From Mucilaginibacter lappiensis (lineage in GTDB: Bacteria > Bacteroidota > Bacteroidia > Sphingobacteriales > Sphingobacteriaceae): DNA of 64,000 nucleotides. Made by a program: the position numbers and the translations under genes. Location of the stretch: positions 62,001 to 126,000 of the forward strand of contig NZ_FTMG01000009.1 in NCBI RefSeq assembly GCF_900155965.1, in the 5' to 3' direction. The notes under the pieces were generated by a model. That model had not been told where the DNA came from. It saw nothing but the letters and a program-made list of their open reading frames with translations, and searched no databases. Below are positions 48,984-53,248 of the stretch, in pieces (the stretch's first letter is position 1; each line of letters opens with the position of its first letter).

Positions 48984-50642
48984 ATGGTTTCTCTTTTTGA
49001 ATCTAAAACCAATGGCCCCAAGGCCGCAAAACTCCTGCTTGACATTTTGAATGTTAAAGTTACGGAAACAACACTAACTCAGGAAATAGAAGAACATCCG
49101 GATTATCCAAGCTTATTAAGCATAAGTGATGTGTTGAATAATCATGGCGTTGAAAATATGGGTATAAGAGTTGATCCTGAAAAGTTTGATGAACTTCCCT
49201 GTCCATTTATTACCCAGATACGGTGGGGAAAGGTACCCGCAAATCTTTTTACTGTTGTAAAGGAAGTGAATGAAAAAAATATCCAGTTTTTTGACCCGGA
49301 AAAACATCGATGGACTTCCCTTGATAAAGAGACTTTTTTAAAGAGGTGGTCAGGCATTGTATTATTAGCTGAAGCAAGCGATGATGCAGGAGAGAAGGAC
49401 TATAACAAAAAGGCAAAAGAAGAAAACAGGAAAAATATCATTCAATATCTAAGCGCCTTTTGTATCCCTGCTATAGTTATTATTGCCGGGCTATTGACCC
49501 TAACGCAATTAGGCGCAAACGCTTTGCTGCCGGTTGCTTTTACTTTGATAACGCTTGCCGGAGGTATCACCGGGGCTTTATTGCTTTGGTATGAGATCGA
49601 TCAGCATAATCCTGTATTTCAGCAAATTTGCAATGCCGGTAAAAAGGTAAACTGCGGAGCTATATTGCAATCCAAAGCCGCAAAAATTGGAGGTATTAGC
49701 TGGAGTGTTTTAGGCTTTAGTTATTTCATGGGTATATTGCTGTTGTTGTTATTTTCAGGTATCACCAATCCAACTGCATTGTTTGTTATATCCTGGCTAA
49801 ATGTAGTAGCTGTACCGTATGTGATATTCTCCATTTACTATCAGTGGCGTGTAGCCAAACAATGGTGTGTATTGTGTTTATGTGTACAGGGGGTATTGGT
49901 GCTACAGCTGGCAACTACACTTGTGGGTGGCTGGCACACTTTACTATCATTTAATATCATTGAACCCGGATTAATCATTTCAACTTTAACGGCTCTGGTT
50001 ATTCCGTTTATTGTCACCACTTTATTAATACCGGCTTTTCAAAAAGCTAAAGGAAGCAAACAGATTAATACTGAACTACAAAAGCTAAAACACAACAGGC
50101 AGATATTTGAAGCATTGCTTGAAAAACAAAAGAGGGTGGTAAATATCCCCACTGGACTTGGCATAACCCTGGGTAACCCCAACGGTATTTATAAATTGAT
50201 TAAAGTATGCAATCCTTATTGCGGCCCATGTGCTAAAGCCCATCAGCCGATGGAGGATTTACTGGAAAATAACCCGGATGTTCAGATACAAATATTATTT
50301 ACCGCTACAAACAGCGAAGGAGACACAAAAGCGCCTCCTGTAAGGCATTTGTTAGCTATTGCTGAAAAAAATGAAGAGCCTGTTATAAAAAAAGCGTTGG
50401 ATGACTGGTATCTGGCCGAAAAGAAAGATTATGAAGTATTTGCTGCCAAATATCCAATGAATGGCGAATTGAAACAGCAAAATGCTAAAATAGAAGCTAT
50501 GGAAAATTGGTGTGATACTATAGAAATAGAATTTACCCCCACTTTTTTTGTTTCCATTCCAAATGATGAAAATGAAGTAACATATTATCAATTGCCAGAA
50601 ATATATAGTGTAATTGATTTAAAATATTTCTTTTCTGTATAA
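48984..50642 (+). CDS. C39-like / VKOR / thioredoxin fusion, putative disulfide-forming maturase for the neighbouring peptides
   Basis: 552 residues. N-terminal domain (1-130): HPDYPSLLSISDVLNNHGVE and PANLFTVVKEVNEKNIQFFDPEKHRW resemble peptidase C39, but the usual catalytic Cys and His positions are not conserved (the segment that should hold the Cys reads AAKLLLDILNV; the His position reads NLFTVV). It therefore looks like an inactive leader-binding module. Then come five or so membrane helices (about 150-350) with VKOR cysteine pairs in CNAGKKVNCGAIL (about residue 223) and QWCVLCLCVQGVL (about residue 300). A soluble thioredoxin-like domain follows with the CXXC-containing KVCNPYCGPCAKAHQPMEDL (about residue 412). 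VKOR-thioredoxin fusions make disulfides in the periplasm. The GG-leader peptides downstream are the obvious candidate substrates. Confidence 0.88.
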   Translation: MVSLFESKTNGPKAAKLLLDILNVKVTETTLTQEIEEHPDYPSLLSISDVLNNHGVENMGIRVDPEKFDELPCPFITQIRWGKVPANLFTVVKEVNEKNIQFFDPEKHRWTSLDKETFLKRWSGIVLLAEASDDAGEKDYNKKAKEENRKNIIQYLSAFCIPAIVIIAGLLTLTQLGANALLPVAFTLITLAGGITGALLLWYEIDQHNPVFQQICNAGKKVNCGAILQSKAAKIGGISWSVLGFSYFMGILLLLLFSGITNPTALFVISWLNVVAVPYVIFSIYYQWRVAKQWCVLCLCVQGVLVLQLATTLVGGWHTLLSFNIIEPGLIISTLTALVIPFIVTTLLIPAFQKAKGSKQINTELQKLKHNRQIFEALLEKQKRVVNIPTGLGITLGNPNGIYKLIKVCNPYCGPCAKAHQPMEDLLENNPDVQIQILFTATNSEGDTKAPPVRHLLAIAEKNEEPVIKKALDDWYLAEKKDYEVFAAKYPMNGELKQQNAKIEAMENWCDTIEIEFTPTFFVSIPNDENEVTYYQLPEIYSVIDLKYFFSV

Positions 50643-50774
50643 GATAACTATTCATGATGTATGAGTAATATAAAGAGGAGGTAACCTGATCAGTAAATTA
50701 CGTGATTGCCCCCTGTGCTTCCGGGCTTAATAATAAGGAAGTAAAAATCATTAACCAATTCAATTTATAAAACA

Positions 50775-50948
50775 ATGAAAAAACTAAAATTAAAGGCGCA
50801 GGAACTTAATGTTAATGAAGTGCTTACAAGAGAACAATTGAAAAAAGTATCTGGTGGGGGCAGTAATTGCGTTAAAGACAAGGCTCCGTGCGAATGGTTT
50901 ACACCATGTTGTCATGTTTGTGCCGGAGTCTATTGTGGTGATATATAA
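50775..50948 (+). CDS. GG-leader cysteine-rich peptide precursor 1 (knottin-like)
   Basis: 57 residues, found by hand. The leader MKKLKLKAQELNVNEVLTRE ends in KVSGGG, the double-glycine cleavage context read by C39-type peptidases. The core, SNCVKDKAPCEWFTPCCHVC and onward, has six cysteines with spacing C-x6-C-x5-CC-x2-C-x4-C. That C-C-CC-C-C framework is the one used by inhibitor-cystine-knot peptides. A near-identical 5' region (ggaag...aatttataa) precedes copy 2, and a terminator follows. It is probably secreted, oxidised peptide with three disulfides. The activity (bacteriocin, signal or other) is unknown. Confidence 0.88.
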   Translation: MKKLKLKAQELNVNEVLTREQLKKVSGGGSNCVKDKAPCEWFTPCCHVCAGVYCGDI

Positions 50949-50980
50949 GCAGAAAATAGAAGATTAAGGCTATTACTTAT

Positions 50981-51017
50981 AAAAACGGCTGGAGGTAAGT
51001 CTCGGCCGTTTTTTTAC
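50981..51017 (+). terminator. Rho-independent terminator after peptide 1
   Basis: AAAAACGGC pairs with GCCGTTTTT across a loop of about 15 bases and is followed by TTT. Peptide 1 therefore has its own transcript end and is not obligately joined to peptide 2. Confidence 0.85.
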
Positions 51018-51153
51018 TAATAATTTGTTTATAAAAAACTGTTCACTCATGGTGTATCTAAGAGTATAAACATCTTTAAATAAATACAAGAGAGGTGTGT
51101 CGGTGCTTTATAAAAAGGAAGCAAAAATCATTAACCAATTTAATTTATAAATA

Positions 51154-51339
51154 ATGAAAAAACTAAAATTAAAAGTATTAGGATTGACTACTAATGAAGT
51201 GCTCACAAGGGCACAGTTGAAAAAAGTATCAGGTGGAGGGAGTCATTGCCTTGCAGTTGGCAGTGCGTGCTCATTTTTTAATGACCCACCATGTTGTCTT
51301 ATTTGTCTTCCATCATTTCTTTGTGGCTATCCGTCATAA
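51154..51339 (+). CDS. GG-leader cysteine-rich peptide precursor 2 (knottin-like)
   Basis: 61 residues. The leader MKKLKLKVLGLTTNEVLTRA...KKVSGGG is nearly identical to that of peptide 1. The core SHCLAVGSACSFFNDPPCCL and onward has spacing C-x6-C-x7-CC-x2-C-x5-C and ends CGYPS. Leader conservation with a variable core between fixed cysteines is the pattern expected of a precursor family under diversifying selection. The 5' region 51117-51153 repeats that of peptide 1 with few changes, so the duplication included the leader RNA. Confidence 0.9.
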   Translation: MKKLKLKVLGLTTNEVLTRAQLKKVSGGGSHCLAVGSACSFFNDPPCCLICLPSFLCGYPS

Positions 51340-51432
51340 GCTAAAAGTTGTAACCTCCAGAGCAAACTTTTTAATATTTTGTACATCTTAAAAAGAGAGC
51401 AAAGCTGACCAATTAATTTAACGCATGAAGCA

Positions 51433-51612
51433 ATGAAAAACTAAAATTAAAAGCATTGAAATTATCTGCTAACGAGGTGCTTACAAGGGCGAAATAAAAA
51501 AGTGTTGTGCGGTGGGAGCAATTGTGTTAAATATGGTGAAGCTTGTGAATTTTACATATTATGTTGCGGTATTTGCCTTGCTTCACTCGTTTGTGGCTGG
51601 CCTTCTTTATAG
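51433..51612 (+). pseudogene. Decayed third GG-leader peptide precursor
   Basis: ATGAAAAACTAAAATTAAAA at 51433 matches the start of the two intact copies with one A deleted, which puts a stop at codon 4. In the leader, ACAAGGGCGAAATAAAA replaces ACAAGGGCACAGTTG, adding a second stop and frameshift. The core is still readable after that: CGGSNCVKYGEACEFYILCC, then GICLASLVCGWPSL, with C-x6-C-x5-CC-x2-C-x5-C intact. The leader is broken while the core framework survives, so decay looks recent. Confidence 0.85.
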
Positions 51613-51719
51613 GCCAAAATGGAGGATCAAACAATTGCCTGTATAAAAGTGGTTGAGCCAAAGCCTTATCGTTTTACTTTCATTATTATTTTGTAAGAGA
51701 GGGGCTTGAAATTACGAAA

Positions 51720-51854
51720 GTGAACTATTCTATTAGAAGACTAATGAAGGTGCCATTTGTGCTTTTTATTATTATTTATAATTCAGGTATGGTGCCCATG
51801 TTTTCAAGTGACGGGAACACTTTGGCAGATAGATTCGTTATTGTAAAAGGCTAA
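51720..51854 (+). CDS. Possible 44-residue hydrophobic peptide
   Basis: A GTG at 51720 (or ATG at 51744) opens a frame MNYSIRRLMKVPFVLFIIIY, then NSGMVPMFSSDGNTLADRFV, ending before 51854. It has a basic start and one hydrophobic segment, like a signal or small membrane peptide. It could be a real small protein of the peptide system or a chance frame in AT-rich DNA. Confidence 0.25.
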   Translation: MNYSIRRLMKVPFVLFIIIYNSGMVPMFSSDGNTLADRFVIVKG

Positions 51855-51862
51855 TTTTTATA

Positions 51863-53248
51863 ATGTCTCCAAATACAAAAAAATGCTTAAAGACAAAGGA
51901 AATGGTTAATAATGAAATAAAAACTATCTCTGCTTATATTATCAATTTAAAGAGCAGAGTAGATCGTAAAGAACACATTTTAAAAGAATTTGCCGGTCGC
52001 CCGGAATTTACTGCACATGTAGTGGAAGCTTGCCAGCACAAAATTGGCGCCGTTGGTTTATGGAATACGATCAGGCACATCGTGCAAAATTTGGTAAATG
52101 AAGATGATGAATATGTATTGATTTGTGAGGATGATCATCAATTTACGGCTTCTTATTCTAAAGAGTTATTGTTTAACAGTATAGCTAGCGCCCAGAATAG
52201 AAATGCAGATATATTGTTGGGAGGTATAAGTTGGTTTAAGGGTATTGTGCAGATTGAAGATCCTTTGTTTTGGGTGAAAAGCTTTAACGGAACACAGTTC
52301 CTGATCATATTCAGAAAGCTTTTTACCTCATTGTTGGCCGCTGATTTCAATGATAATGATACCGCCGACTTTAAAATATCCATACTCGCTGAGAGTCAAT
52401 TTTTTATACACCCTTTTATTTCTGTACAAAAAGATTTTGGGTATTCTGACGCTACACCTAATAATAACCAGGAAGGTCATGTTGGGGAATTGTTTGCAAC
52501 GAGTTCAGAATGGATTCAGAATTTAAAAAGTGTTGGCTTTTATTATGAAAATATTAATCGACAAATTGAGGATGAAAGTGATGAAGATGTATATCATAAT
52601 TTAATCATTCCAACTTATGTTATTAATCTGCCTGAAAGAACGGATAGACTGGAGCATATAAAAAAGCAATTTAAAGGAAAACCGGAGTTTAATGTAACAA
52701 TTGTAGAGGCCTGTAACCATAAAATAGGTTCTGTAGGCCTATGGCAAAGTATCAGAAAGATTATTAACCTGGCAATGGAAAACGATGATGATGTGATAAT
52801 TATATGCGAGGACGATCATGAGTTTACAGAGTATTACTTCAAAGAGTATTTGATGAAAAATATAATAGAGGCTCACTTACAGGGGATAAATTATTTATCG
52901 GGCGGCAGCAGCTATACTGATAATGAAATACTCATTGCTGATAATAGATTTTGGGTAAGTAATTGTCTGGCCACTCAGTTTATTATTCTTTATAAAAGCT
53001 TTTTCCAGCAAATTATTGATGAACCTTTTGATGATGGGGTTATTGTTGATCGATTACTCTCTGAAATGACAAGTAAAAAAATGGTATTGTATCCATTTAT
53101 TTCAAGGCAACATGATTTTGGATATTCAGATGTTACGACGATCCACAATGAAAATAAAAATTTGGTTAACCGGTTATTCGAGGAGAGTGATAAGAAGCTA
53201 AACGCCATTTATATTATGCATCAAAAGTATAATTCCGTAGATATATAA
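51863..53248 (+). CDS. Internally duplicated GT25-like protein near the peptide genes
   Basis: 461 residues; M14 at 51902 (MVNNEIKTISAYIINLKSRV) may be the true start. Two homologous halves, about 1-230 and 245-461. Each opens with INL-x-R-x-DR-x-EHI, then PEF...VEAC-HKIG-VGLW and an acidic motif (LICEDDHQFT and IICEDDHEFT). Each ends near HPFIS-x-Q-x-DFGYSD-x-T. The EDD motif and INL start resemble family 25 glycosyltransferases (LPS/collagen type), which use a DXD-like metal site. Placed beside precursors and a disulfide-forming enzyme, it may glycosylate the peptide, as in glycocins. It could equally act on surface glycans. Confidence 0.75.
   Translation: MSPNTKKCLKTKEMVNNEIKTISAYIINLKSRVDRKEHILKEFAGRPEFTAHVVEACQHKIGAVGLWNTIRHIVQNLVNEDDEYVLICEDDHQFTASYSKELLFNSIASAQNRNADILLGGISWFKGIVQIEDPLFWVKSFNGTQFLIIFRKLFTSLLAADFNDNDTADFKISILAESQFFIHPFISVQKDFGYSDATPNNNQEGHVGELFATSSEWIQNLKSVGFYYENINRQIEDESDEDVYHNLIIPTYVINLPERTDRLEHIKKQFKGKPEFNVTIVEACNHKIGSVGLWQSIRKIINLAMENDDDVIIICEDDHEFTEYYFKEYLMKNIIEAHLQGINYLSGGSSYTDNEILIADNRFWVSNCLATQFIILYKSFFQQIIDEPFDDGVIVDRLLSEMTSKKMVLYPFISRQHDFGYSDVTTIHNENKNLVNRLFEESDKKLNAIYIMHQKYNSVDI

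Follow-up and report, generated by a model that had tools for sequence, protein, structure and literature searches.

We analyzed a 64,000-nucleotide stretch of the Mucilaginibacter lappiensis genome (contig NZ_FTMG01000009.1, positions 62,001 to 126,000), here called the window, in which a membrane protein combining C39-like, vitamin K epoxide reductase (VKOR) and thioredoxin domains is encoded beside small cysteine-rich peptides with double-glycine (GG) leaders. The features of this locus, in window coordinates and with the evidence for each, are the following.

48984..50642, plus strand: C39-like/VKOR/DsbA-like thioredoxin fusion, 552 amino acids (aa) (Pfam, conservation in 87 relatives, AlphaFold2 [AF2] model, fold search, hydropathy).
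50775..50948, plus strand: precursor 1, 57 aa, with a 28-aa GG leader and the core C-X6-C-X5-CC-X2-C-X4-C (open reading frame [ORF]; leader profile E value, 2.6e-17).
51154..51339, plus strand: precursor 2, 61 aa, with a 28-aa GG leader and the core C-X6-C-X7-CC-X2-C-X5-C (ORF; leader profile E value, 1.1e-15).
About 51434..51614, plus strand: decayed third precursor (leader profile match with one TAA; frame-by-frame translation).
51863..53248, plus strand: tandem GT25-like glycosyltransferase, 461 aa (Pfam PF01755; comparison of the two halves).

The N-terminal domain of the fusion (residues 5 to 133) matched the C39 family PF03412 at 55.2 bits (cut-off, 22), and the middle part, which holds cysteines 216, 224, 295 and 298, matched the VKOR family PF07884 at 53.9 bits (cut-off, 27.5). 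The C-terminal domain (residues 382 to 552), with a CGPC motif (Cys 413 and 416) and cis-Pro 519, scored just below the Thioredoxin_4 threshold (22.0 versus 23.2 bits). An AF2 model (pLDDT, 91.5) divided the protein into three domains in agreement with the fold search, which matched the C39-like part to the LahT-leader complex (6mpz; Z score, 15.6), the VKOR part to Synechococcus and vertebrate VKORs (Z of about 13 to 15) and the thioredoxin part to ScsC, BdbD and DsbA (Z up to about 17). A phmmer search of the VKOR-thioredoxin part against the PDB gave no match, though the fold search did. The PF03412 score and the LahT-like fold place the first domain in the C39 fold; the PF07884 score and the four catalytic cysteines, present in 87 of 87 relatives, place the second among the VKORs. 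All six redox cysteines and cis-Pro 519 were invariant in the 87 relatives.

The C39-like domain has lost its active site. The catalytic cysteine column holds asparagine in 75 of the 87 relatives and cysteine in none, and the catalytic histidine column, mostly Asp or Glu, holds no histidine (0/87), while the C39 domains of peptidase-containing ABC transporters (PCATs) in the same alignment keep both residues in six of six. We therefore rejected an active C39 protease. The first-pass annotation, made from the sequence alone, had described one protein joining a C39-type domain apparently without catalytic Cys and His to VKOR and thioredoxin domains, and had named an intact C39 active site as a finding that would count against its proposal; Pfam, AF2, the fold search and the alignment all bear the description out. 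A stretch of the C39-like part, HPDYPSLLSISD, is strongly conserved, and its counterpart in the PCATs in the alignment is EGVSLLGISEAAE. In LahT, the leader sits in a groove between helices 1 to 3 and the central sheet (PMC6363468), and by analogy the HPDYPSLLSISD stretch would line the equivalent groove of the fusion. In three loci (L282, L283 and L081), separate or overlapping ORFs encode the C39-like and VKOR-thioredoxin parts, which would fit either a fusion able to split or a broken reading frame.

Both intact window precursors carry six cysteines, in cores of 29 and 33 aa, and the stretches upstream of the two genes are nearly identical. In the third, the six-cysteine core is out of frame with the leader, whose coding part is interrupted by a stop. 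The ORFs, the leader profile and the frame-by-frame translation thus agree with the earlier count of two intact precursors and one decayed one. The C-C-CC-C-C cysteine spacing of the inhibitor cystine knot is present in both window cores, and across the fusion loci, where the peptide cores differ widely, it occurred in 18 of 100 six-cysteine cores, compared to 0.4 expected by shuffling. AF2 modeled precursor 1 with a pLDDT of 63 (moderate values of 71 to 75 in the core), and the best PDB matches of the precursor model were cystine-knot peptides, at scores that were not significant. The window peptides resemble animal inhibitor-cystine-knot peptides in cysteine spacing and in these best fold and sequence matches, neither of them significant, but they are bacterial and have a GG leader. 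The resemblance is most likely convergent and uninformative on activity.

To score linkage, we counted GG-leader peptides with at least four cysteines encoded within 3 kb of a fusion and on the same strand. This was done in two sets that overlap in genomes, so that their counts cannot be added: a genus set of 80 fusions and a named set of 82 from Mucilaginibacter, Chitinophaga, Pedobacter, Parapedobacter, Niabella, Hoylesella, Dyadobacter, Sediminibacterium and others. The earlier proposal had been staked on the fusion being found more often with such peptides than without them, and it was, with a peptide at 61 of 80 fusions in the genus set and at 53 of 82 in the named set. In the genus set, 88 peptides lay on the same strand and 0 on the opposite strand, with the nearest peptide a median of 104 nt downstream; in the named set, the counts were 68 and 1 and the median was 128 nt. 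An even number of cysteines was found in 157 of 162 distinct peptides. Given the strand and cysteine-parity controls, the linkage is not due to chance, and the predicted co-occurrence across Bacteroidota extends well beyond the window, with same-strand peptides in both sets.

The leaders are of the kind read by C39 domains, with small residues at −2 and −1 and hydrophobic residues at −4, −7 and −12, the latter in 99% of cases at each of these three positions (n = 157). LahT, a C39 protease, accommodates the same three positions in its groove (PMC6363468). Full-length relatives of the fusion were found in 66 of 121 same-genus genomes, about half, and in about 40 of 395 evenly drawn Bacteroidota genomes, about a tenth; they include records from Emticicia, Spirosoma, Hymenobacter, Aureibacter and Parabacteroides, and the relative in Mucilaginibacter sp. 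SG564 is 82% identical over the fusion. One record, L081 (NZ_OY725771.1), is labelled a Parabacteroides distasonis plasmid and carries lysS, gmk, tsaB and nadD; it may be a mislabelled piece of chromosome.

Leaders of this type are not confined to the locus. In the window genome (6.79 Mb in 39 contigs), the leader profile matched 13 places, including the two intact window precursors and the decayed third, and inspection of nine of the other places yielded seven stand-alone peptides, with 8, 6, 6, 6, 6, 6 and 3 cysteines. The two nearest relatives without a peptide beside the fusion (loci L032 and L033; genomes G022 and G082) encode such peptides elsewhere in the genome. Among genus genomes, a full-length fusion was present in 26 of 29 with the MKKLKL-type leader and in 40 of 92 others. 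The three leader-positive exceptions were two incomplete assemblies (61% and 81%) and a 92% complete genome with one short partial match.

The two closest relatives of the fusion, in L032 and L033 (identities of 88% and 82%), are flanked by neither a peptide gene nor a GT25 gene. In L033, mraZ comes right after the fusion, whereas in the window the peptide and GT25 cassette occupies that position, which means that the cassette was either acquired or lost there. A stand-alone eight-cysteine core, SGPTCSINQG...CWCGCRG, is nearly identical in four Mucilaginibacter genomes (L322, L330, L336 and L340), which suggests selection.

Exporter genes are frequent near fusions in general. Over 156 fusion loci in which neighboring genes were counted, a PCAT homologue was present in 104 and HlyD in 85, and in Emticicia and Aureibacter plasmids the fusion, one or more peptides, a PCAT and HlyD form one run. 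TlpA-type proteins were found in 34 of these loci, DUF4369-type proteins in 21 and LanC in 10. Thiol proteins of the TlpA or DUF4369 type are a recurrent feature of the fusion clusters, and their genes often come directly after the peptide gene (L048, L052, L056, L063 and L173). The window genome encodes six C39 ABC proteins away from the fusion, and the stretches around these six genes held no fusion and no peptide fitting the pattern. With its peptides dispersed and its exporters elsewhere, the fusion of the window genome probably acts in trans on several precursors, as judged from gene positions.

Hydropathy gave the fusion six hydrophobic segments, at about residues 152 to 350, so that both of its ends would lie on the same side of the membrane. 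The C39-like domain occupies the N terminus itself, which leaves no space for a signal peptide. The C39-like domain, the VKOR cysteines and the thioredoxin would all lie on one face, which carries 15.1 lysines and arginines on average; the opposite face carries 0.94, and the bias runs this way in all 166 fusions. In ordinary Bacteroidota VKORs, a control that leaves out L260 and L261 (both C39 fusions), the charges lie in the opposite loops in 11 of 12, with one tie. Together with the positive-inside rule, the inverted charge pattern argues for a cytosolic catalytic face and suggests oxidation at that face before export. If this holds, leader, oxidase, glycosyltransferase and precursor would all be in the same compartment, as suits subsequent removal of the leader by a C39 exporter. 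A VKOR of Aeropyrum pernix, studied by Hibender et al. in 2017, reportedly serves two compartments.

Based on these results, we consider it fairly probable that the fusion and peptides form a biosynthetic system for secreted, disulfide-rich GG-leader peptides with a leader-guided fused oxidase, probably working at the cytosolic face. The dead C39 domain would bind the GG leader and bring the core to the fused quinone-linked oxidase, where the DsbA-like domain would oxidize the core cysteines and be re-oxidized by the VKOR domain, probably on the cytosolic side of the inner membrane. Some cores may also receive sugar from the tandem GT25, and a PCAT encoded elsewhere in the genome would cut the leader and export the folded peptide. 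One fusion would probably serve several dispersed precursors. We infer leader binding, disulfide formation, glycosylation and PCAT export in trans from sequence. The interpretation of leader-guided oxidation made in the first-pass annotation is in this sense supported; we add to it the frequent PCAT-HlyD export genes at other loci and, as probable, action in trans and a cytosolic orientation, which that annotation had not considered. The peptides most likely have an antibacterial or signaling role.

The most specific form of this proposal, in which a single enzyme serves many dispersed peptides, its dead C39 domain catching the GG leader and its membrane-inverted VKOR-DsbA unit knotting the cysteines while the precursor is still in the cytosol and not yet exported, is tentative, and we put it somewhat short of an even chance. 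Several observations weigh against the overall proposal. The AF2 model draws residues 140 to 205 as one unbroken helix, without the hairpin of transmembrane segments 1 and 2 that the six-segment count assumes, and we hold the orientation as no more than probable for this reason. Cytosolic disulfides would need to survive the reducing systems of that compartment. Between a quarter and a third of the fusions have no peptide of the pattern used within reach, and no exporter gene was found beside the window fusion and precursors when we looked for one. The Fisher value of 1e-5 for leader-fusion co-occurrence ignores the shared ancestry of the genomes. Bacterial VKOR and DsbA proteins act mostly in the periplasm, and the fusion may follow this usual topology, with a cytosolic C39-like domain that recruits the precursor or the exporter and a periplasmic VKOR-DsbA part that oxidizes the peptide on its exit. 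The long AF2 helix could leave the C39-like end in the cytosol and the remainder on the opposite side, and TlpA-like proteins, usually periplasmic, are encoded in many of the clusters. However, six segments place both ends on one side, and the charge pattern is the reverse of that of ordinary VKORs in every fusion, so we regard this arrangement as possible but rather unlikely.

It is also conceivable that the C39-like domain reads no leader and is instead a docking site for the PCAT or a remnant, the fusion being a general disulfide oxidase whose place in peptide clusters is incidental. A precedent is HlyB, whose C39-like domain behaves like a chaperone toward its unfolded substrate (PMC6363468). 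We hold it to be improbable, since fusions adjoin GG-leader peptides even where no PCAT is near, as in the window, and since the HPxYPSLLSISD segment has been retained despite the loss of the active site. Alternatively, the cysteines could bind metal or form thioethers, with an oxidoreductase that keeps them reduced or is unrelated to them. LanC- or LanB-like genes do occur in some loci, but the low LanC count given above, the invariant VKOR catalytic cysteines, the even cysteine numbers and the excess of cystine-knot spacing over shuffled cores make this a very poor prospect. A chance gene order is already refuted by the strand controls in several Bacteroidota groups; we rejected it, leaving it a next to negligible probability. 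Leader-guided oxidation by the fused enzyme is the reading that we compare below with known systems.

The closest known system is that of the bacteroidetocins, class IIf bacteriocins of Bacteroidota. In the accessible text of their description (PMC6671954), these have a GG leader of 15 to 16 aa and a core of about 42 aa, usually with four cysteines and with a gel shift that fits disulfides, and their region encodes a C39 ABC exporter, a protein with five transmembrane segments and a separate thiol oxidoreductase needed for full activity. The two systems share the phylum, a GG leader, a cysteine-containing core and the probable use of a PCAT and a thiol oxidoreductase. They differ in that the window leaders are 28 aa long, the cores have six cysteines and a single fused enzyme is present, and that text describes no C39-VKOR-thioredoxin fusion. 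No separate gene for a transmembrane protein, PCAT or thiol oxidoreductase lies beside the window precursors; the PCATs are encoded elsewhere in the genome. As far as the published dimensions go, the leader and core lengths led us to reject membership in the bacteroidetocins.

Glycocin clusters, in outline, combine a GG leader, a disulfide core, a glycosyltransferase and thioredoxin-like proteins. The window differs in its tandem GT25, its VKOR-based oxidase fused to a leader-type domain and its core framework, and we rejected membership because there was no GT2 match, only PF01755 (GT25) above its cut-off. The C39-like domain shares its fold (Z of about 13 to 16) and the leader positions −4, −7 and −12 with the C39 domains of LahT, ComA and PCAT1 and the inactive C39-like domain of HlyB, but it lacks the catalytic Cys and His and is joined to VKOR-thioredoxin instead of an ABC transporter. 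Synechococcus VKOR (3KP9) has the same VKOR fold, four catalytic cysteines and a fused thioredoxin-type domain, to which the fusion adds an N-terminal domain and a further transmembrane segment; its thioredoxin part stands closest to ScsC/BdbD/DsbA.

A literature search that covered few subscription papers found no paper linking VKOR to bacteriocins or describing the fusion with such peptides. The set of a fusion with GG-leader, even-cysteine peptides looks like an undescribed way to make disulfide-rich peptides, and the six segments and inverted charge pattern, which hint at cytosolic oxidation before export, are new in this analysis. If the proposal is true, it describes a widespread way in which Bacteroidota make disulfide-rich and possibly knotted peptides, using oxidation machinery that recognizes the leader, and a dead C39 domain would gain a job outside ABC exporters. 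The proposal raises the testable question of whether a membrane enzyme installs peptide disulfides in the cytosol before secretion. Public annotation calls the fusion relatives vitamin K epoxide reductase family proteins, and the fusion can serve as a search key for the peptide genes, most of which are labelled hypothetical or lack annotation. The leader and fused oxidase could also serve as tools for producing disulfide peptides in laboratory strains.

The last gene of the locus matched PF01755 at 55.2 bits (cut-off, 24), with EDD motifs at 80, 89 and 316, and so belongs to GT25; its two halves are 42% identical (E value, 8e-57), as expected for the duplicated GT25-like protein noted earlier next to the precursors. 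Relatives align from about residue 20, and translation may start at an internal Met 13 codons in. A strong tandem GT25 was found in 10 of 131 genus genomes. In five of them (G000, G014, G017, G086 and G102), it adjoins a fusion or lies no more than 6 kb from one; in four (G045, G049, G096 and G586), it lies beside GG-leader peptides with 8 or 10 cysteines, with no adjoining fusion; and in the tenth (G117), it sits in a LanB/PCAT cluster. Among the 395 evenly drawn genomes, 2 had it, and in G400 it is split into two adjacent half-genes beside a fusion and two six-cysteine peptides. In its distribution, GT25 tracks the peptides and not the fusion. Of the exact gene set proposed in the first-pass annotation, the fusion with peptides stood, and GT25 as a core part did not: it is an accessory that varies between loci, present in 22 of 156 with a fusion and almost invariably next to such peptides, which it may glycosylate. 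The loci L276, L277, L278 and L279 show a tandem GT25 beside GG-leader peptides with 8 to 10 cysteines in a neighborhood without a fusion. In L280, a tandem GT25 pair accompanies a LanB-like gene, a PCAT, HlyD and a LytTR regulator, which suggests that GT25 is used with other peptide classes too.

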